Virus record (IMG/VR): IMGVR_UViG_3300030109_002517
Coordinates: 1 to 33,440 of that record
Length of the DNA stretch: 33,440 bases
Source: a virus
Strand: one strand, 5' to 3'
Shown: positions 11,220 through 33,440 of the stretch, in pieces
How the letters are laid out: every line of letters starts with the position of its first letter
How positions within the stretch are numbered: the stretch's first letter is position 1
Position numbers and translations under genes: made by a program
The notes under the pieces: model-generated
What the model saw: the letters and a program-made list of their open reading frames with translations, nothing else
Databases searched by the model: none
What the model was told of the DNA's origin: nothing

Positions 11220-14200
11220 ATGCCTGACAGAGTCGATTTGCCAGACGGCACATACATCGACATTCCCGATGATATGACCAACGAAGCTCGTATAGAGCTT
11301 CAAAAAATGATTGACAATGAGTTTGGAACGAGTCATCACCAGACTTTATATACAGGTCTACAGGGAGGCCCGACCCGAAGCAGTGCATCTAGTCCGATAG
11401 AAGAGTCTGGTGGCACACTGCTTGGCTCCGCATGGGAAGGTATTAAGAGCATTCCACGCGGTGCAAGACAGTTTGGTCTCATGGCAGCACAGGGCTGGGA
11501 AGGCATCAGAACCCCTGACGAAGATACTGACCGCGAGAAAGAACTCAGGCAGCGCATGGAAGATCTCATGATGGAGATCGACCCACGTTATCGGGACTCT
11601 AACCTTGTCAATGTAGGCATGGGTCTTGGTCAGGTTGCTGGCATGATGGGTATTGGCGGAACCGCATCATTGCTAGGCGCGGGAGCCGTAGGGGCAACAG
11701 CTATTACAGGTGCAGCCACTGCACTTATGGGTGCGGGCGAGCAGTCTAGCAGAATAGCTGAGTTTGAAGAGTCTACGGGCCAAGATGTTAGCGCAGCCAA
11801 AGAAGTTATGGCTATGGGTATGGGCTTGGGTATTGGGCTTAGTGAAGTTGCTTTAGGACCGATGGCTAAATTTGGAAAAGCCATTGGTGTCGCTAAGAGA
11901 AGTGGCGCACCGCTAAGACAGGTCTTAGCAGATCAAGGGGAAAACGTCATTGAGCGTGGCCTTGTTGGGTCTGTGCTAAGACAGGCTGGGGAAGAAGCGT
12001 TACAGGAGGGAGCCGCAGGCTTTGCACAAAGTGCTACGGCTAGAGCTTTGTATGACGATCAAGCACTTGTTGGCGGTGGCGCAGCAGCATTAAAAGAAGC
12101 TTTGATCGGTGGTCAGGTAGGCGGTGTAGTCGAGGCAAGCACCAAACTTCTTACACGGGCTTACGCAGGCAGGCGAGGTGCCCAAATCCGACGCTTGCTA
12201 GGCAAAAAGTATGAAGAAAAGCTTGCTAACGGTGAGTTCGACACTCAAGACATCAACGATCTTCTTCAAGATCTTGACGAAGACACTGAACTAGGTGCTC
12301 GCAACCGGGAACTGCGCGACAGCGTGGTAAGAAGAGATGAAGACACTGGCGAGTTTGTTGTACATGAAGATGAAGCTGGGTTAATTGCCCAGAACAATCA
12401 GAAATTTGTAGAAGAAAACGACAGGTTGCACGACAAGTACCTAAACGGCGAGATAAGTTGGGAGACTTACACGGAAGCGTCCGATCAACTAATTGAACGC
12501 AGTGGAAACCTTAAGCGTGAACTTGAGATACTTGCTGCTACCTACAATGCGCAAGCAAAAGGCTTGCTTGATCGTGGCCCCCAACAAATTACCCCGTCAA
12601 TGGCCCCGCCCCCGGTCACTGATGAGCCAAACGTAGAAGCTTTAGCACCTTCAGTAACCACTGACGGCAGAGATTTAGTTGACAATGTCAAAGCTGTTTT
12701 GCGCAGAAGTGACGATGATATAGAGATTGACGCTAGAGAAACTATTCAGCGTCGGATCAATGAACAAAGAACTGTGCAAACAGAACAAAGAGCAAAGATT
12801 AAACAGCAAGAAGAAAAAATTGCATATCAGGAAGCACAGCTTGCTCGTCGTCAGGAGCTTGAAGCGGCTGTAGAAGACACTGTGATTGTTACGCCAGCAA
12901 ACACAGAGGCTGGGTCAAGGGTGTCGCATCCTGAGTATGGACTTGGTGAGGTGGTGCAGTCCGGTCAACCTGTGTTGGTGCCTCAACTTGACGAGAAGGG
13001 CAACCCCAAACGAGACAAAAACGACAGGTTGCTAACGCAAAACCGTTTAGTGGGTCGCGTTGTTAACCACAAGAGCTTGGGGCAAGGTGTGGTTACTGAC
13101 GTAAAAGGGGGTGGAGTCTCTGTAAAGTTTGGCGATGACAAGCCTAAACGCATAAAGGCTGACTTTCTTACAGATGCAGAAACAAACGAATCGTTAGAGG
13201 CCGAACTAGAAACTCAACAAAACGCTGGCCGCTTGATGGTTCAGTTTGATAACGAAGCCGAACCGCGAGTTGTGTCTACACTTACTTCGGGTGATCTGAC
13301 TTCAGCCGAAATGCAAGACAGGCTTGAGACTCTCAGGGCTGATGGAAAAAGAAAAGGATCTATAAGACGAGCAAATCTTAACCTAACAAATTTGCGCAAA
13401 AAGTTTCTTAAAAAGTTGGGCGAAGAACAAGGTTCCGGTGTCATAGAGAACACGAACGTGGGCGCATCAAGACAGCAAAGCCCAAACAAACAACAGGCAG
13501 AGAGGCTTGATCTTATAGAACAAGCTCAGGCCGAATTAGAAACAGCAAGGCAGGCAGTAGAAAACCTTCGTTCAGAAGAACAAAGGATTCTAAACAATCT
13601 AAGAGCAGGTATATCTAAAAATCCCCTTACGGCTGTGCCTGTACAAGGCAGGGCGCGACAAGAATCAAGCCAAGAAATTGCTGATATCGTAGAGCGTATT
13701 GAGCAAGTTCGGAATGGGCCGTGGAGAGGGGCTGCGACTGAAGCTGAAGTGGTAAACATTCAGCGGGAAGCCGTTGCACTACAAGTAGAACAACAACTGC
13801 TAAGAAATGAGGGCAGGCCAGAGACAGACCCTGAGCTTCAAGCAATTAACGATAGGCTTATGGAGCTAGAAGCAACGCTTAATGTCTTAGATCAACAAGA
13901 CAGTCGTGGGCTTCTTGAGTCTCAGACGGCGTTTGACTCTTTTGTAATACCAGAAGGGTTGAGGTACAAAGACTTTGAGTCGGCTACAGACAGGACTCTG
14001 TCAACAAAAGACCCAAGCGGTCTCAACGCTAAAGGCAAAAAGCTTGCAGAAAACTTTGGTGTCGATGAAGCGCAGATGCTCGCTACAATCAAGGAGTACC
14101 GTGCTACTAGAGACCGGGTAGAGTCTCTACAAAAAGAACTGGAAGTGTTGGACGCCCAGCTTAATGAGCTTGATCCTTCTATACAGTTAGCGAGCGACAG

Positions 14201-17200
14201 AGTTACACTAAGTCAGCAACAACAAGAATTAGAAACAATTCAAAACGAAGAGTTGTTTCCTGAGTTGGAAGGTGTTGAGACTACACTGACAGGTATAGAA
14301 AGTGAGTTAGCCGATCCAGATTCGCGCTCCGACACACCTCTACTGTTGTTAAGAAAACAGTTTGAACAACTCCGCAAGCAAGAGGACGCCGCCGATCTCA
14401 CGGCACTAGAGGAACGCCTTGCAACCGCAGAGCAAAGACAGGCGTTGCGTGGACTGCTTGACTTAGCACGAACTGAAGGTGGCATGCCTGCCTTAAGCCC
14501 AAGGCAAGTAAAGCGATATGTGCAAGACATACTCTCAGGTGGAGTATTAGTTAGACCAACACCTGTACTGGAAATAGAAAGTCTTGTTGGCGAGCCTATT
14601 AAGAAACGCATACCTCGCCGCAAGGGCCGGGTGGACCCAAGCAAACCGTTAACCAAAAGACAAGAGGCAGAACAACTTCACAGTTCTGTGCGAAACAGTT
14701 GGTTGTATGGAGACACTAGAACGCCAACACCCCTTGCTCTTGACTCAGAACAAGCTGGTTTGGACGCTGCCGAAAAGGTCATCTATCACACACTAGGCAT
14801 TGGATCTCTAATGGAGATAGCCGATGGCCTAGAAAACAGTGGTGCCTACGACAAGCCCGTTCCGGACAACTGGGTAGGGCCAAGCTTCGGACAGCTAGGC
14901 AAGGCTGAGTTTATCAACTTCAGGAAAAAGCTTGAAAAAGCTAAGTATGAAATAACAGCAGAGCACATCTTTGAGTTGCTCAAACTAAAAGGAATCCCTG
15001 CACCTTTTGGTAACCTTGCAAACTTTGAAAGGTCTCCGTTTTTTCGAGATCTTGTTTTTACTACTGTTGCAGACCCTGATACAGATCTAATAGCAGACGT
15101 AAAATGGAAAGACTTAGCTGAAGGCGAGAAGCAGGCTGTGCTTGCGCGGGTTCTTAACACACCCAGCCGGTTACGAGTTGACCAAGAAGGTGTGCTTACC
15201 TATGCCGTTGGCAGAGTTGGGGATCCTGCGCTTAGGGATCAAGCCAAGCGCACCTTAGCAGGCTCAGTTGACGAGGTCGCTGTCCGCGTTGAAAGCGATT
15301 ACAACGTTCGGATTGAAGGAAACTACGCAAGGATTGATGACGGCCAGCTAGGTCCATTTAAAAGTGAACAACAGAAACTAGAGCAGGCTGAAGGCTTAGA
15401 GGAAGCTCGCCAAAGGATTGAAAGATTTAAAACGGCTGTAGAAAAACGTCTCAGGAAGATGAAAATAACAGCCATCCCCATGTTCACGGCCAATGTAGAT
15501 GGGGTATACGCGCAGATTGAAGACGTGATTGCTAATGGTACGTTTGAGTACGAAACAGATCCTAATACTGGCCGAGTAAAACCTAAGTTAGATAGTAATG
15601 GCCGCGTAATCTATCGTCCGGGGTACGAAGACGGAGCCGTCGCATCACTGCGAAATCACGGCACCCGCATCATGTACAATATTTCCCAGATTGAAGCTAA
15701 GTACGGGAAAGATTGGGACACAAAGATGGACGAGATTGTCAGAGACCTTACTGTCCACGAAGGTGCGCACATTCATTTCCTCAGAGACTTGTTAACTGAG
15801 ACAGAGCGAAAGTCTTTAGAAAAGTTTGGAAAGAAAGAAGGGTATGTGCCCGCGTCCGTTAGCCAAGAAGCGCACAATAAAAAGTTAACGTGGCGTCAGT
15901 ATGTAAAAGAACTGTACCCTGAACTTTCTGAAGCAGCCCTGACTGAGGAAACTTCAGTTCATATTCTAGAAGCGTTAGCATCAGGCAAGCTTGCGGCCAG
16001 CAAAACTGCTGGGATAATCGGAAAGATCAAACGCACCCAGCTAGGCATCTTCAGTGCAATATTCCAGAGTGCCGCAGAAGCAGACATAAACTCTGTAATG
16101 CAGGTCTTTGAAAGAACGCAGAATGTTGACTTAATGAAGTCAAGACAAAAAAGAAAAGCAGATCAAAAAGGTTTAGCTTCTCTGCGTTTGGTTGAAAGGG
16201 CTGACCCAGAAGACCTAAGAGCCTTACGAAAAGCTGTTAAAGAAAACAATCAACAACAGATAGACGAAATCTCTGACCGGATACTGTTAAAGAGGCAGGA
16301 GTTCTCTGACGAACGGTCACCAATGCAGCGTCTGCAAGAGTCTTTAATGACGGAGCTACGGGCGCGGCGACAGATTGAGGGCAACCCGTCTAATGTTATT
16401 GAACCCATATTAAATGCTAAAGCTATTGAGGCTGGCGAAATTGATATAGACAGCCTTAACGCTTATTTCCGATTCAGAGATGGCAGAGAGCCTCCGTTTG
16501 TAATGCCTACGGGAGAAGCTGACAAACGATCTTGGAGAATAAAATTCCAGAAGTCACTGTTTGCTCTGAGTGGTAAAACAGTAGATATGTTAGACAACAC
16601 AAAGTCTGACGGTGGCTATGTGGACACGGGCACCTCAGCCGCAGAAGCTATCATAGAAAAGCTGGACGCACACAACGAGTATGTAAGCAAAAAAACAGGA
16701 AAGAAGGTACGGATAAAGACCGAAAAAGACTGGAAGGAGATGATGCAACAGAGTGGCAAGGAACGCTTTGTTACTCGCTTCTTCGATCAACGCATACCGA
16801 TGTTGAAGTCGCAAATCAGAGAACGCAAGAGACGCGCAGAACTGGCAAGCGAACTTGGTGATTACGAAAGCGCATTGCAGATGTTGTCAGATCAGGTAGC
16901 TATATCGGCGTGGAGGTGGGCCGATAACGCTATGAACTTTGTGTCTATGATCGTAAGTCAGGGGCCATTGCAGTACAGCAACGGTGGTTTTTCTCTTAAC
17001 AAAGAGGCTTACGGTAGAGAAGCAGCAGGCAGGGGCGACATACCAGTAAAAGCACTCAAAGATATTGAGGCACCTTTACTGCAAGTCGAACGAGGCCAAG
17101 AGATGGCTTCGCGTTACCTTAACGCGCTTCGTGTTCGAGACGTTAAGACAGAAGTTCACAAGGCTGAACTAGAGTTACAAGCGGCTGAGTTGGAATTTGA

Positions 17201-19961
17201 ATTGCTTGGTGATCCGAATGCCGACAGAAGCAAGATTATAAAACAAAGAGCGATTGTTCAGGAGTGGCAAAGCCTGTACGAAAGAGCCAACCCTGTCGCA
17301 GGGTATGTAGAAGTTGACGGGGAAAGACGGCCTTATCGTTTGCTTCCAGAAAGAACAGTAGAAAACGAAAAGGGTGACACAATTATGGGTTACCCTGAAA
17401 CAATAGAGTTTTTCCAAGAAGGCACAGACCAAGAGCATGAACTTGTGCGTGAGTTCGCAGAGGAGTGGGCTGATCTCAACGCTCACATGATTCAGTTTGC
17501 AGTTGATACCGGAATGCTTAGTCAGGATCGCGCTGACATCCTAAAGAACATGGCTTTTGTGCCGTTCTATCGGGATCAAGGCTATGACAACGACACGATG
17601 TTGTACAACCCTGACAACAGAACAGTGCAGGAATCAAACCGTGAAGCAGCTAACGACGACCCGGTTCTTCGCGGACAGATTCTTCTAAACAAAGCTATTC
17701 AGGGAAGCGTTGCTCCGATAAGCCAAGATTTGTTTGCAAACTTAAGAGCAAATGTTTCAGGTATTGTCCGCGATGGCATGCGCAATGTAGCAATGACCCG
17801 GACTATTCGAGACGAGCTTAGAAACGGAACAGCCATAGAAGTCATAAGGCCAAGCCTGCAAGAGTTAAATCGCCAGAAGTTTGTTAACGAGCAAATAACA
17901 AAACTTAGAAAGAAAGGAGCAAGGAGAACCGCTCAAGAAGAAACCTTGTTTAACGACTTGCAGTTAGAAAAGGTGGGCTTAGACGAGGTTATTGCAGAAA
18001 AACAAAAAGCATTCAAGAAGCAAGAAAGAGAGTTGAACCTAGCAGGGTTCTCATCAATAGAGGTCATGGTGCAGGGCGTTCAACCAGAAGCAGTTATGCA
18101 ACTTGATGAGAACGGAAACCCTGTGCATGAAGGTAGGCCGATGGCAGAGCAGGGTGAAACAAAAATCTACCGTGTTGTAGACCCGGCTCTTTCTCAGGCC
18201 ATGATGGACATTGGCTTTAGTCCAATGCAAGCTATTGAAGATTTCTTTGGCAAGACTCTTGGTATAAGCCCTAAGTTTTCTCACGGTCTAGCCAAGCTTC
18301 TGGTCGGATCCTCTAGGTTTCTTAGAGAGACTGTGACACGGTCGCCTCCCTTCATGTTAAAAAATATCATGAGGGATGCTATGCAGGCTTCTGTCATTTA
18401 TGGCGGAAATCCGTTTGTGCTTGCCGGTAAAATTATTAAGAACACCGTGACGCCCGGATTGGTTGAACAGGCTGAGGCTCGTGGGTTAGGTATTGCCGTT
18501 GACCAAGCATTCGATGAAGCAGATGGGCGCACCTCTGTGCGGGCAAACTGGGATAGTCAAATACCAATTGTTGGTTCCGTGTGGAACACGCTTGGACGAA
18601 TGGGCAAGCAGTCAGAAGTTGCTACTCGCATGGCTGTGTACGACATGGCTTTGGCAAAAACAGATGGCAACGCGGCAGAAGCGTTAACACAAGCTATAGA
18701 GATCATGAACTATGGTCGCCGTGGATCAAGCCGAATGTTTGCAACTATAGCTGCTATGTCTCCATTCCTAAATGGTCGGATGCAGGGCTTAAGCGTTCTT
18801 GTAAGAAACCACTTGGGATCACTAGACTCGCCCGGCATTATGATGGGCGAAGATGGTATGGCTTTAGACCCAAAGGTAGAGGAAAGGTTAAGACGACAGC
18901 AGGCCCTGATGCGTGGCAGCTTGATTATGCTGGCTACCCTAGGGTACTACCTCATGATGAGGGACGACGAAGAGTACAAGAACGCTCGTGAAGACACGAA
19001 GAATGATTGGTGGCTTATTCCGTTAGGGCGAGACGAAGAAGGTAAGACGAGACTTGGTTTTAAAATACCAATACCGTTTGAGGTGGGTCTGATTTACAAG
19101 GTTATTCCTGAGCAAATGTTCAGGGCTATATCAGAAGAAGAACATGACTTTGTCGATGTAGGCAGCGAAGCGTTTAGGCAGTTAAAGAACACTTTGTTCA
19201 TGGACATGCGTCCACAGCTAATACGTCCAATGCTTGACGCTATGAGTAACCGTGATGCATTCCAGCGTGACCAGATCGTGCCCTCGTGGATGGAGAACTC
19301 TGTCGCAGCAAGTGAACAGTACAATCCCTACACCAACATGATGGCGAGGCTGATTGGCGACAAGCTAGAGAACATACCTGTCTTGAATAAGATGAGTGCT
19401 CTTACATCTCCCATGAAACTAGAGTACATGATGCGTCAGTACACTGGAACTATTGGTGCTTATGGAATGGCTATGGCTGATCGCGTTGCGCGTGAGGTTA
19501 TGGATGAAAACATCGCTGGAACCTCTGCTGACTTTGGCTTCTCGCAAGACACATTCGCACAGATGCCTATGCTTGGCGACCTCTTTTATAGCACAGTAAA
19601 GGGTGGCGGCTACCAAGAAGACTTCTACGAAACCATGGAGCAAATGGATCACCTGATCACGACCATGGGTCAAATTGAAGACAGTGAAGGCGGCGTAGCA
19701 GCGTTGCAGTATAAGGAAGAAAACATAGGCATGTTCCGTCACAAACGCCGCTTACAGTATTTCGACAGGCGCATGAAGCGTTACAGGGAACAAAGAGACA
19801 GAGTGTTTAACAGGCCAGACCTCAGCAAAGATGAGAAACGAAGGATGCTGCACAGAATGTTTGAGCAGCGTGACGATATGCTTTCAGACATGTTAAGAAT
19901 CATGGCAGAAATAAGACGAGACCGAAGTGCAACTGAACGATTGTTTGGAGTTGAACCGTAA
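11220..19961 (+). CDS. Giant polyvalent virion protein: Tudor-like repeats, HExxH metallopeptidase motif, LPD38-like C-terminus
   Basis: This 2913-residue protein is the largest gene in the window. The N-terminus (VDLPDGTYIDIPDDM...) is typical of ejected phage giants. Gly/Ala-rich hydrophobic helices lie at about 127-173 and 198-218. Two SH3/Tudor-like units lie at about 567-652 (VSHPEYGLGEVV and VNHKSLGQGVVTDV). Long Gln/Glu coiled coils follow to about 1100. HEGAH at 1513-1517 matches the zinc metallopeptidase HExxH motif, and TEETSVHILEA 60 residues later could supply the third ligand. Residues about 2355-2745 resemble the LPD38 domain of large polyvalent proteins (RSPPFMLKNIMRDAMQASV; NYGRRGSSRMFATIAAMSPF). 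It is probably packaged and ejected with the DNA, the T7 gp16 place. No lysozyme or transglycosylase motif was found. Domain names are by eye. Confidence 0.8.
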   Translation: MPDRVDLPDGTYIDIPDDMTNEARIELQKMIDNEFGTSHHQTLYTGLQGGPTRSSASSPIEESGGTLLGSAWEGIKSIPRGARQFGLMAAQGWEGIRTPDEDTDREKELRQRMEDLMMEIDPRYRDSNLVNVGMGLGQVAGMMGIGGTASLLGAGAVGATAITGAATALMGAGEQSSRIAEFEESTGQDVSAAKEVMAMGMGLGIGLSEVALGPMAKFGKAIGVAKRSGAPLRQVLADQGENVIERGLVGSVLRQAGEEALQEGAAGFAQSATARALYDDQALVGGGAAALKEALIGGQVGGVVEASTKLLTRAYAGRRGAQIRRLLGKKYEEKLANGEFDTQDINDLLQDLDEDTELGARNRELRDSVVRRDEDTGEFVVHEDEAGLIAQNNQKFVEENDRLHDKYLNGEISWETYTEASDQLIERSGNLKRELEILAATYNAQAKGLLDRGPQQITPSMAPPPVTDEPNVEALAPSVTTDGRDLVDNVKAVLRRSDDDIEIDARETIQRRINEQRTVQTEQRAKIKQQEEKIAYQEAQLARRQELEAAVEDTVIVTPANTEAGSRVSHPEYGLGEVVQSGQPVLVPQLDEKGNPKRDKNDRLLTQNRLVGRVVNHKSLGQGVVTDVKGGGVSVKFGDDKPKRIKADFLTDAETNESLEAELETQQNAGRLMVQFDNEAEPRVVSTLTSGDLTSAEMQDRLETLRADGKRKGSIRRANLNLTNLRKKFLKKLGEEQGSGVIENTNVGASRQQSPNKQQAERLDLIEQAQAELETARQAVENLRSEEQRILNNLRAGISKNPLTAVPVQGRARQESSQEIADIVERIEQVRNGPWRGAATEAEVVNIQREAVALQVEQQLLRNEGRPETDPELQAINDRLMELEATLNVLDQQDSRGLLESQTAFDSFVIPEGLRYKDFESATDRTLSTKDPSGLNAKGKKLAENFGVDEAQMLATIKEYRATRDRVESLQKELEVLDAQLNELDPSIQLASDRVTLSQQQQELETIQNEELFPELEGVETTLTGIESELADPDSRSDTPLLLLRKQFEQLRKQEDAADLTALEERLATAEQRQALRGLLDLARTEGGMPALSPRQVKRYVQDILSGGVLVRPTPVLEIESLVGEPIKKRIPRRKGRVDPSKPLTKRQEAEQLHSSVRNSWLYGDTRTPTPLALDSEQAGLDAAEKVIYHTLGIGSLMEIADGLENSGAYDKPVPDNWVGPSFGQLGKAEFINFRKKLEKAKYEITAEHIFELLKLKGIPAPFGNLANFERSPFFRDLVFTTVADPDTDLIADVKWKDLAEGEKQAVLARVLNTPSRLRVDQEGVLTYAVGRVGDPALRDQAKRTLAGSVDEVAVRVESDYNVRIEGNYARIDDGQLGPFKSEQQKLEQAEGLEEARQRIERFKTAVEKRLRKMKITAIPMFTANVDGVYAQIEDVIANGTFEYETDPNTGRVKPKLDSNGRVIYRPGYEDGAVASLRNHGTRIMYNISQIEAKYGKDWDTKMDEIVRDLTVHEGAHIHFLRDLLTETERKSLEKFGKKEGYVPASVSQEAHNKKLTWRQYVKELYPELSEAALTEETSVHILEALASGKLAASKTAGIIGKIKRTQLGIFSAIFQSAAEADINSVMQVFERTQNVDLMKSRQKRKADQKGLASLRLVERADPEDLRALRKAVKENNQQQIDEISDRILLKRQEFSDERSPMQRLQESLMTELRARRQIEGNPSNVIEPILNAKAIEAGEIDIDSLNAYFRFRDGREPPFVMPTGEADKRSWRIKFQKSLFALSGKTVDMLDNTKSDGGYVDTGTSAAEAIIEKLDAHNEYVSKKTGKKVRIKTEKDWKEMMQQSGKERFVTRFFDQRIPMLKSQIRERKRRAELASELGDYESALQMLSDQVAISAWRWADNAMNFVSMIVSQGPLQYSNGGFSLNKEAYGREAAGRGDIPVKALKDIEAPLLQVERGQEMASRYLNALRVRDVKTEVHKAELELQAAELEFELLGDPNADRSKIIKQRAIVQEWQSLYERANPVAGYVEVDGERRPYRLLPERTVENEKGDTIMGYPETIEFFQEGTDQEHELVREFAEEWADLNAHMIQFAVDTGMLSQDRADILKNMAFVPFYRDQGYDNDTMLYNPDNRTVQESNREAANDDPVLRGQILLNKAIQGSVAPISQDLFANLRANVSGIVRDGMRNVAMTRTIRDELRNGTAIEVIRPSLQELNRQKFVNEQITKLRKKGARRTAQEETLFNDLQLEKVGLDEVIAEKQKAFKKQERELNLAGFSSIEVMVQGVQPEAVMQLDENGNPVHEGRPMAEQGETKIYRVVDPALSQAMMDIGFSPMQAIEDFFGKTLGISPKFSHGLAKLLVGSSRFLRETVTRSPPFMLKNIMRDAMQASVIYGGNPFVLAGKIIKNTVTPGLVEQAEARGLGIAVDQAFDEADGRTSVRANWDSQIPIVGSVWNTLGRMGKQSEVATRMAVYDMALAKTDGNAAEALTQAIEIMNYGRRGSSRMFATIAAMSPFLNGRMQGLSVLVRNHLGSLDSPGIMMGEDGMALDPKVEERLRRQQALMRGSLIMLATLGYYLMMRDDEEYKNAREDTKNDWWLIPLGRDEEGKTRLGFKIPIPFEVGLIYKVIPEQMFRAISEEEHDFVDVGSEAFRQLKNTLFMDMRPQLIRPMLDAMSNRDAFQRDQIVPSWMENSVAASEQYNPYTNMMARLIGDKLENIPVLNKMSALTSPMKLEYMMRQYTGTIGAYGMAMADRVAREVMDENIAGTSADFGFSQDTFAQMPMLGDLFYSTVKGGGYQEDFYETMEQMDHLITTMGQIEDSEGGVAALQYKEENIGMFRHKRRLQYFDRRMKRYREQRDRVFNRPDLSKDEKRRMLHRMFEQRDDMLSDMLRIMAEIRRDRSATERLFGVEP

Positions 19962-29736: not shown

Positions 29737-30040
29737 TTACAAGAACCAACCGAAGCTAGACTTCGCGATCTTCAGTAACAAGTTCCGGCAGAGTGACCGG
29801 CACCCATCAAAGACAGGGACCATTGAGTTCACGGAAGAGTTTCTCCGTGCGATGGTGAACAAGGCGAAGGAAGGCGCGATGCCCAAGCTGAAGGTGGCTG
29901 TCTGGGATCGCACCTCCAAGGGCGGCATGCCTTACGAGAACGCTCGCCTTGAGATTGACCTAGCCAGCACTGGATCTGGTCCAGTCAAGGTCGAGGCTGA
30001 ACCGGCGGCTGACGCAGAGGGTGATGGCCTCCCCTTCTGA
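29729..30040 (+). CDS. Putative single-stranded DNA-binding protein with acidic tail
   Basis: This 103-residue protein starts at ATG 29729 after AGGGGA and overlaps the annealing protein by 8 nt. Residues 8-80 are a beta-rich domain with basic and aromatic residues (LDFAIFSNKFRQSDRHPSKT; VAVWDRTSKGGMPYENARLE). The C-terminus is flexible and acidic, ending AEGDGLPF, similar to the D-D-D-I-P-F tip by which SSB proteins recruit partners. Position after a recombinase supports ssDNA binding. The core does not match a classical OB-fold SSB by eye, so it may be a divergent or unrelated binding protein. Confidence 0.6.
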   Translation: MPDYKNQPKLDFAIFSNKFRQSDRHPSKTGTIEFTEEFLRAMVNKAKEGAMPKLKVAVWDRTSKGGMPYENARLEIDLASTGSGPVKVEAEPAADAEGDGLPF

Positions 30041-30248
30041 GGAGAAAGTTAAATTTCTCCTGAGAGTAGAGGCGGGCACCCTTGAGACTTTGCGAAGCAC
30101 TGCAAGTGTCAGGGGTGTCAGCCTGTCTCAGTTACTGCGAGACATACTGAATGACTATGTGCAGGCAATGGATCGTCCGATCATAGAGCACCGAGTAGAT
30201 CCGTACAGTGTCCCTAAAAAGAAAAAGGAAAAAAATTGGTGGGAATAG
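30024..30248 (+). CDS. Ribbon-helix-helix (Arc/CopG-like) DNA-binding protein
   Basis: This 74-residue protein starts at ATG 30024; GTG 30021 is an alternative. VKFLLRVEAGTLETLRSTAS forms the strand and first helix, and RGVSLSQLLRDILNDYVQAM the turn and second helix, which is the Arc/MetJ/CopG fold; these dimers bind operators through the strand. The C-terminus is very basic (PKKKKEKNWWE). It overlaps the neighbours by 17 and 13 nt. It is a good candidate to regulate the early genes and to bind one of the repeat sets in the noncoding region, which is inference. Confidence 0.75.
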   Translation: MASPSEEKVKFLLRVEAGTLETLRSTASVRGVSLSQLLRDILNDYVQAMDRPIIEHRVDPYSVPKKKKEKNWWE

Positions 30249-31926: not shown

Positions 31927-32172
31927 TTACAGACTAATAAGCTTGAGGATTAGCTTGCGGATCCAGTTGATCTCGCCGCAGTTAGAATGGAGCATGGGTC
32001 CGGCCACGTTGTCGGGATTGTCCCACGCCTCTAGCATGGCCCGACACTCCTGACGTTGACACCCATAGAGCTTGAGTGCCCCTGAGTGTACGATCTCAGT
32101 GGGCTTGTGTCCCCTCACCACTGCGATGAGGAGACCACGCCTCAGCAACCGTCTTGCACCTCTTGTTCTCAC
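31927..32172 (-). CDS. Small basic hypothetical protein
   Basis: This 81-residue protein starts at GTG 32172, overlapping the upstream stop (GTGA). The N-terminus is very basic (MRTRGARRLLRRGLLIAVVR), the middle has C38, C43 and C65, and the C-terminus is a hydrophobic helix (INWIRKLILKLISL). The cysteines are not in a standard zinc-finger spacing. It may contact the membrane or DNA. It ends only 4 nt from the rightward terminator's T-run. Confidence 0.5.
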   Translation of the reverse strand: MRTRGARRLLRRGLLIAVVRGHKPTEIVHSGALKLYGCQRQECRAMLEAWDNPDNVAGPMLHSNCGEINWIRKLILKLISL

Positions 32173-32399
32173 AGCCCTTCTCTTGCGTCATCACGAACAT
32201 CGTCCAGCTTGAGATACAAACTGTTCTCAATGTCCGCAAGCATCCGCTCTGACTCTTCTGTCAGTTGAGCGATTAGAATCTGAGAGCGATCACCTCCCTG
32301 CTTAGCAGATGTCAGCATCATCTCTCGTGTCCGGGCATACACCTTAACCTTACTCATAAAGGTGTTGATCCACGTCTGGTGCTCATGCCTAATGGTCAT
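32169..32399 (-). CDS. Small helical hypothetical protein
   Basis: This 76-residue charged, all-helical protein (HQTWINTFMSKVKVYARTRE; QILIAQLTEESERMLADIEN) ends in an acidic-basic tail. AGGAAG lies 6 nt before ATG 32399. It is first of a two-gene minus-strand unit behind a promoter at 32434-32461. No family recognised; the helical heptads suggest a dimer or bundle. Confidence 0.6.
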   Translation of the reverse strand: MTIRHEHQTWINTFMSKVKVYARTREMMLTSAKQGGDRSQILIAQLTEESERMLADIENSLYLKLDDVRDDAREGL

Positions 32400-32528: not shown

Positions 32529-32966
32529 ATGACGAGGGGCACTACCCTAACACCAAAGCAGGCCGCGTTCTGTGCGTTTGTAGCACGAGGGGACACCCAG
32601 ACGGAGGCGTATATCAAAGCCTATGATGTGCAGGGGGGAAGCAGACGAAGCGCATCCAACGAAGCGACCAAGCTCTGTCGGATGGACAAGATCAAGACAC
32701 GAATCCAAGAGCTTAAAGACGACAGCGCAGTAGCTAAACGAGAACAGAAGAAACTCTCGAAAGCATGGATCATACAAAGCCTTCAGGCCGAAGCAAGCAA
32801 CACCGACAACGCTCCAAGTGTGAGAGTCAGGGCACTCGAAATCCTAGCCAAGACTGAGAAGCTGTTCGACGATAGCACGTCAGTGAATATCGTACATAGG
32901 AATAGCGAGGAGATCTACCGAGAACTACAGGAAGCTCTCAGTGGTCTCGACTTCGATATGAATTGA
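32529..32966 (+). CDS. terS: Terminase small subunit
   Basis: This 145-residue protein shows the Terminase_2/XtmA-type layout: LTPKQAAFCAFVARGDTQTE with AYIKAYDV, a helix-turn-helix (SRRSASNEATKLCRMDKIKT), a coiled linker (RIQELKDDSAVAKREQKKLS) and a C-terminal oligomerisation part with ARALEILAKTE-like helices (VRALEILAKTEKLFDD). Small terminases form rings, recognise the packaging site and hand DNA to the large subunit. GGAGA at 32519-32523 is the ribosome binding site. No large subunit follows within the window: at least 474 nt of noncoding DNA comes next. Confidence 0.85.
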   Translation: MTRGTTLTPKQAAFCAFVARGDTQTEAYIKAYDVQGGSRRSASNEATKLCRMDKIKTRIQELKDDSAVAKREQKKLSKAWIIQSLQAEASNTDNAPSVRVRALEILAKTEKLFDDSTSVNIVHRNSEEIYRELQEALSGLDFDMN

Positions 32967-33071
32967 TATACCCTGTAGATGGTAGGCAGAGAACAAGCGC
33001 AGGGGCTCTTTCGCACGGGTTTTTTCGGCAAAACAGGGTCAAAGTTTCGCAACTCACCAAAAATTCAGGGC

Positions 33072-33100
33072 TTGACAGGGAAGTAAAACTAGTTTACTAG
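33072..33100 (+). promoter_or_regulatory. Promoter candidate, rightward
   Basis: A perfect TTGACA (33072-33077), 17-nt spacer, then TACTAG (33095-33100), only 3/6 to the -10 consensus. The -10 half sits in a near-palindrome (AGTAAA-A-CTAGTTTACT, 33082-33098), so it may be an operator-controlled promoter. Confidence 0.4.
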
Positions 33101-33149
33101 TAGAAAGAACTGTTTAAGTAGATAAACTGGTAGAAATACCTAGTAGAAA
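33097..33149 (+). repeat. Three short direct repeats CT(A/G)GTAGAAA
   Basis: Copies at 33097-33106, 33127-33136 and 33140-33149 (the second has G in place of A) lie in the AT-rich part of the control region. The same CTAGTAG / CAGTAGAAA words occur close together in the minus-strand coding sequence near the 3' end of the RusA-like gene, which may reflect shared base composition rather than function. Confidence 0.55.
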
Positions 33150-33198
33150 AGAGATAGGTAGTTTAAATAGATTACCTTTTATACTAGGAGAGTGGTCC

Positions 33199-33398
33199 GA
33201 CGCCCGTACCTCGGCTGATTAAGGTTGACGCCCGTACCTCGGATCACTATAAGAGAGGTGTCATGGCTAGGTGGGCTGATATCTGAGTCCAGTGGCCCCC
33301 TTAGCATGACTTAAACGACCATGGACAACCTTCGCTCTGACGTTGGTGGCCTCTCACGTCCGTACCTCTGACGCCCGTACCTCTCACGTCCGTACCTC
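33199..33398 (+). repeat. Five-copy 14-bp repeat array (G/C)ACG(C/T)CCGTACCTC
   Basis: Copies: 33199-33212 and 33227-33240 (GACGCCCGTACCTC, both followed by GG), 33355-33368 (CACGTCCGTACCTC), 33370-33383 (GACGCCCGTACCTC) and 33385-33398 (CACGTCCGTACCTC). The first two start 28 bp apart; the last three start exactly 15 bp apart and alternate between the two variants. All are in one orientation. Ten of 14 positions in the core are invariant or nearly so. This looks like an iteron or operator array. Confidence 0.9.
33225..33253 (+). promoter_or_regulatory. Strong sigma70-like promoter overlapping repeat copy 2
   Basis: TTGACG (33225-33230), exactly 17 nt, then TATAAG (33248-33253): 5/6 at both boxes. 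Repeat copy 2 (33227-33240) covers part of the -35 and most of the spacer, so any protein that binds the repeat would block or shape this promoter. Behind it, ATG 33263 stops after 7 codons, so the transcript either has a very short leader peptide or codes beyond the window. Confidence 0.7.
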
Positions 33399-33440
33399 AG
33401 TCATATATATAGTGTGTGCGTGATACCTGTTGACACATAT

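Follow-up and report, generated by a model that had tools for sequence, protein, structure and literature searches.

Short direct repeats at the gene boundaries between terS and terL in a group of related marine phages are, somewhat more likely than not, asymmetric operators for a phage-encoded DNA-binding protein, arrayed before separately promoted genes. The window (the whole stretch of DNA that was analyzed, 33,440 nucleotides) is an entire linear IMG/VR contig that ends inside the repeat region, and it contains arrays 1 and 2 only, the contig end cutting off the remainder of a larger system. The GTAC-centered 14-bp unit SACGYCCGTACCTC is present as five exact copies starting at 33199, 33227, 33355, 33370 and 33385, every one of them on the + strand, with no copy on the - strand, against a chance expectation of about 0.0005 exact matches in the window under a first-order Markov model. 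The copy-to-copy spacings are 28, 128, 15 and 15, which bears out an earlier sequence-only reading that had described five such repeats, two of them 28 bp apart and three in a 15-bp tandem of alternating variants. That reading had also placed them in the only long gene-free stretch, and positions 32967-33440 (474 bp) are indeed the longest part of the window without an ORF of at least 50 aa, the runner-up measuring 129 bp. The features concerned are listed here.

30021 to 30248, + strand: Arc-like ribbon-helix-helix protein, 75 aa, a candidate binder of the repeats
32529 to 32966, + strand: terS, terminase small subunit gene (phrog_51), directly preceding the arrays; its product is the rival candidate binder
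33199 to 33212, + strand: repeat copy 1, GACGCCCGTACCTC, in array 1 (terS-proximal)
33227 to 33240, + strand: repeat copy 2, GACGCCCGTACCTC, in array 1, within a promoter-like stretch TTGACG-17-TATAAG (33225-33253)
33355 to 33368, + strand: repeat copy 3, CACGTCCGTACCTC, in array 2 (15-bp tandem)
33370 to 33383, + strand: repeat copy 4, GACGCCCGTACCTC, in array 2
33385 to 33398, + strand: repeat copy 5, CACGTCCGTACCTC, in array 2
33402 to 33412, + strand: AT-rich tract catatatatag, after the last copy
33430 to 33435, + strand: TTGACA, -35 element of the next gene's sigma-70 promoter, the -10 element lying past the contig end (TATACT in the near relative G001)

The window does contain the promoter that had been proposed around copy 2, with a 17-bp spacer between TTGACG (33225-33230) and TATAAG (33248-33253), but since its -35 element reads CTGACG in G001 (terS 98% identical) it is not firmly conserved. 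The AT-rich tract behind copy 5 is real and is conserved in relatives, and downstream of it lies a near-consensus sigma-70 promoter, which in G001 is TTGACA-17-TATACT. Between terS and array 1, at 33072-33102, there is in addition a conserved TTGACA (33072-33077) followed by the palindrome ACTAGTTTACTAGT; relatives carry TTGACA and CTAG-rich palindromes at this place in differing order.

The repeats belong to a system shared by a whole lineage. A search with the TerS protein returned 19 viral loci at 55-98% identity, and the core CGYCCGTACC lies downstream of terS in all of them but L011, a contig that stops 285 bp past terS; the repeat is thus present in every terS relative of the lineage whose contig extends far enough. 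Loci that reach terL (phrog_38, PF17289) carry about four arrays at successive gene boundaries, spread over roughly 3-5 kb. Across 70 arrays in 20 sequences the core RCGYCCGTACCT was counted 189 times on the terS strand and never on the opposite strand. The commonest pitch between copies is 13 and 15 bp, longer values of 41, 53 and 28 bp occurring mainly in the post-terS array, and the consensus of 145 distinct aligned sites is the asymmetric CTN-RCGYCCGTACCT, the search pattern itself having dictated its ten central positions. Strong sites in G029, a relative of 52.7 kb, are confined to the terS-terL interval. A scan of IMG/VR for the tandem pattern yielded 26 stretches, and those new beyond the TerS set (L050, L051, L054 and L066) carry the lineage's terL. 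The same scan of about 85,000 prokaryote genomes gave no arrays and only three lone matches, so that the motif is specific to one phage group, and we rejected a host regulatory site on the same grounds. No named phage was found by DNA similarity to the window. After the terL-nearest array, L016, L017, L020 and L024 share a conserved stretch (gtttgagccagcaaggcgaggcgagg...ctcgcatatg) with no obvious promoter behind it.

The gene content between arrays differs among relatives and includes GP88 (PF17338) and DUF932 (PF06067) proteins, and several contigs break at arrays. Both observations would fit shared cassette linkers or selfish repeats that favor the swapping of genes within a variable cargo region and have no regulatory role. 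We regard this as highly improbable, because the core of the arrays is nearly invariant while the flanks diverge, and because the orientation is so one-sided; selection for a bound protein explains these features better. Nor did the search for integrase families give a match.

Evidence that the arrays are linked to gene expression comes from what surrounds them, as judged by simple consensus rules for promoters and terminators devised for this analysis. A strong terminator (hairpin plus T-run) lies within 60 bp upstream of 37% of arrays, compared with 1.8% of random positions. Downstream, a strict sigma-70 promoter follows within 110 bp in 16 of the 46 non-redundant arrays, versus 2.9% of random positions; upstream on that strand, or in reversed orientation, the count is 0 of 46. 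The strict promoter is missing within 110 bp in about two thirds of non-redundant arrays, including the terL-nearest one. Positions 6-15 bp past the last copy are 76-80% AT against a background of 51%, such a tract standing behind most arrays. In the window's clade the last copy is separated from the -35 element by 31-34 bp, and elsewhere mostly by 42-57 bp. Since many arrays come after terminators and before promoters, a function at the DNA level is more likely than one at the RNA level. An RNA element was considered and rejected, as the arrays sit between terminators and promoters and a search of Rfam gave nothing above gathering scores.

The usual unit would then begin with the end of the preceding gene and, in many cases, an intrinsic terminator, and continue with one to five direct copies of RCGYCCGTACCT, an AT tract, a sigma-70 promoter and a short gene or gene pair. 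The units under array control would include those of GP88, DUF932 and small orphan genes, with the sigma-70 promoters presumably read by host RNA polymerase. A protein filling the array could give these genes a timing distinct from that of the early, replication and structural genes, and its effect could be repression, activation or both, or the blocking of read-through. Of the alternatives that the sequence-only reading had raised, an operator cluster is the one best supported, given arrays at gene boundaries with terminators upstream and promoters downstream. Two points weigh on the other side: intergenic position alone would place any DNA element between terminators and promoters, and a regulator without a site at its own operon or elsewhere would be unusual.

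It could also be that the bound protein acts as a roadblock, halting read-through at gene boundaries and so reinforcing the terminators, and does not act on the downstream promoter. The strict co-orientation of asymmetric sites with transcription, often just after terminators, resembles the stoperators of cluster A mycobacteriophages such as L5 and TipsytheTRex, which are short asymmetric intergenic 13-mers whose orientation follows transcription and whose reversal abolishes repression (PMC9283540). Those sites, however, are dispersed genome-wide in temperate phages and are bound by a two-domain immunity repressor, whereas the present ones form tandem arrays upstream of promoters and confined to the terS-terL interval, in phages where the integrase family search found no integrase. 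Moreover, the genes flanking the arrays all seem co-directional, so that orientation is not a clean test of this idea, nor can it separate regulation from the direction of packaging or replication. On this evidence, roadblocks of this kind seem improbable.

The main rival, above all for the terS-proximal array, is packaging. The repeats, chiefly those of the post-terS array, would be a pac-type site bound by TerS that marks the DNA for headful packaging, and the other arrays would serve as extra loading sites. The restriction of the arrays to the terS-terL interval and the presence of direct repeats near terS speak for it, and the pac site of SPP1 likewise includes direct repeats, and it overlaps promoters and the start of terS (PMC4737164). 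Directly after terS, the sister lineages G023 and G027 carry arrays with five and six copies, respectively, of another unit, and no promoter seems to explain the one in G027. The predicted recognition-helix region of TerS is, in addition, conserved within the lineage and different where the repeat differs, which makes TerS a possible alternative binder. Nevertheless, several arrays over 3-5 kb, each at a gene boundary and many of them promoter-linked, are unlike the usual single pac site; in SPP1 and SF6 that site lies at the start of terS, whereas here the arrays lie downstream of terS and extend towards terL. Many contigs, furthermore, span the whole interval uninterrupted, which leaves no place in it for a fixed virion end, and the TerS of SF6 shows little specificity for pac repeats (PMC4737164). 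Packaging, which the sequence-only reading had also proposed, is thus possible for the terS-adjacent array and as a general account fairly unlikely. The case for it is strongest at that array, and the promoter link is strongest at the internal ones.

If the repeats are operators, their likeliest binder is the ribbon-helix-helix protein encoded at 30021-30248, an assignment that we make tentatively from its distribution and predicted fold. In a gene-content comparison by tblastn, its gene was present in 12 array-lineage contigs and in none of 12 outgroup contigs. Lineage confounds this association, since GP88, DUF932 and further genes have the same distribution. Only two close relatives came out of a locus search with the protein. 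In ten sequences FLLRV, the strand predicted to read the DNA, does not vary, and a profile of the protein searched against the PDB gave AvtR and Arc as best matches. A model of the 75-aa protein matches ribbon-helix-helix folds, the E-values for PDB folds being weak, as expected for a monomer of 75 aa. The candidate would in this respect be like the small ribbon-helix-helix proteins that bind known operators, among them Arc, CopG, and AvtR and SvtR of archaeal viruses. Such regulators bind cooperatively to repeated sites, and sites lying about 80 bp from the promoter can serve as starting points for their spread (PMC5569661). The consensus of AvtR and SvtR, however, is an imperfect inverted repeat, in contrast to the putative sites described here, which are asymmetric direct repeats with a pitch of 13-15 bp.

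Further information comes from relatives in which the same interval carries other repeats. Judged by TerL, the nearest named phages are HTVC027P, DSL-LC04, 023Pt_psg01 and HTVC023P, about 55-59% identical. In HTVC027P, psg01 and HTVC023P the terS-terL interval holds short repeats particular to each phage; DSL-LC04 is a less clear case, with weaker repeats. As a genome-wide scan of short-repeat density was confounded by repeats in structural genes, motif counts were used instead. The psg01 genome has five copies of GGGTGGGCC, all of them in the interval and on a single strand, and a TTGACA promoter lies 40 and 48 bp downstream of two of these. In HTVC027P, 16 of 17 overlapping matches to CAAGCNNCAAGC fall inside the interval, on one strand, and there are only two repeat-plus-promoter units, in which the heptads abut the consensus promoters of gp33 and gp34. 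The pelagiphages HTVC027P and psg01 thus share with the window's lineage a GP88 homologue in the interval and lineage-specific repeats upstream of sigma-70 promoters (TerL about 56-59% identical), and differ from it in the unit (CAAGCNN heptads and GGGTGGGCC, respectively) and in its distance to the promoter (7 and 40-48 bp). The HTVC027P gp33 protein (L102 16750-17349), whose function is reported as unknown (PMC12753301), matches the GP88-family (PF17338) protein of G017 over 203 aa at 44% identity. An RNA-seq study of HTVC027P, which encodes no RNAP, assigned precisely gp33 and gp34 to an additional temporal cluster, with high expression at 6-9 hours and outside the early, middle and late classes (PMC12753301). 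This match is independent of our comparisons but post hoc, and it concerns two adjacent genes and a different repeat. Promoters for a phage RNA polymerase were also considered as a reading of the repeats and set aside; a search for the single-subunit RNAP family gave no match, but it gave none in control genomes either and so carries no weight.

That relatives differ in the repeats they carry in this interval suggests sites of gene control that change rapidly, and not a replication origin. The latter had been the first suggestion of the sequence-only reading, the repeats being taken as the iterons of an initiator and the AT tract as the unwinding region, and direct repeats followed by a conserved AT-rich tract would suit it. 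The GC-skew check proposed at the time went against it: in the window and in G029 the cumulative skew tracks the gene strand, with no switch at the arrays. About four separate arrays, each with its own AT tract, replace the one locus expected, no initiator gene was recognized beside the repeats (most small neighboring genes being without a family match), and the primase-helicase gene (phrog_239) lies about 6 kb from the arrays with no repeat copies near it. Because of the missing skew switch and the several arrays, an origin is now extremely improbable, and we rejected it.

Taken further, the operator reading suggests that a marine podovirus family may keep, between terS and terL, an island of separately timed genes whose promoters carry operator arrays, the operator word having been swapped wholesale between lineages while the architecture was retained. 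We put this forward as a possibility more doubtful than the operators themselves. It would indicate rapid co-evolution of regulator and site, perhaps avoiding cross-control by co-infecting relatives, and the terS-proximal array may double as a packaging mark. Pelagiphages of the HTVC023P type are widespread yet little known (PMC9599517), and the transcriptome of HTVC027P includes early genes of unknown function and the unexplained extra expression class (PMC12753301). The present results may bear on how such phages time their genes using host RNA polymerase alone. Should the arrays prove to be operators, such an expression class would have identified control sites and a regulator open to testing, and the arrays would provide a case of operator sequence turnover in which gene order and promoter layout are kept. 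We came across no account of arrays of this kind in open-access papers, a result that speaks for their novelty only weakly, subscription papers being mostly outside the search, and no mention of such repeats was found in the pelagiphage genome paper (PMC9599517).

Several other elements were observed along the way. Dispersed palindromic, operator-like motifs are found in the sister lineages G023 and G021 and are absent from the window's lineage. In G023 (IMGVR_UViG_3300030090_003065), a lineage without the window's repeat, there are 21 instances of the 13-bp palindrome ACTAATNATTAGT between 12.6 and 21.3 kb, of which 12 read AACTAATNATTAGTT, and they form a dispersed operator-like family (L088 12612-18431, L089 19-1275). 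G021 (L092 10276-20934) has 12 copies of GTTTAAAC, and TTACTAG heptads stand in tandem right after its terS. The array of G027 (37731-37906; L082 17731-17906) comprises six CGATTCCNCC units with a pitch of 31-42 bp, and the gene beyond it is apparently convergent, so that no downstream promoter accounts for the array. In the window, a 76-aa minus-strand ORF beside terS (32169-32399; RHEHETWINTFMSKVK... / IENSLYLKLDEV) is kept across the array lineage and was not found in outgroup contigs, and a single ORF of 2913 aa (11220-19961) has relatives in contigs both with and without arrays.
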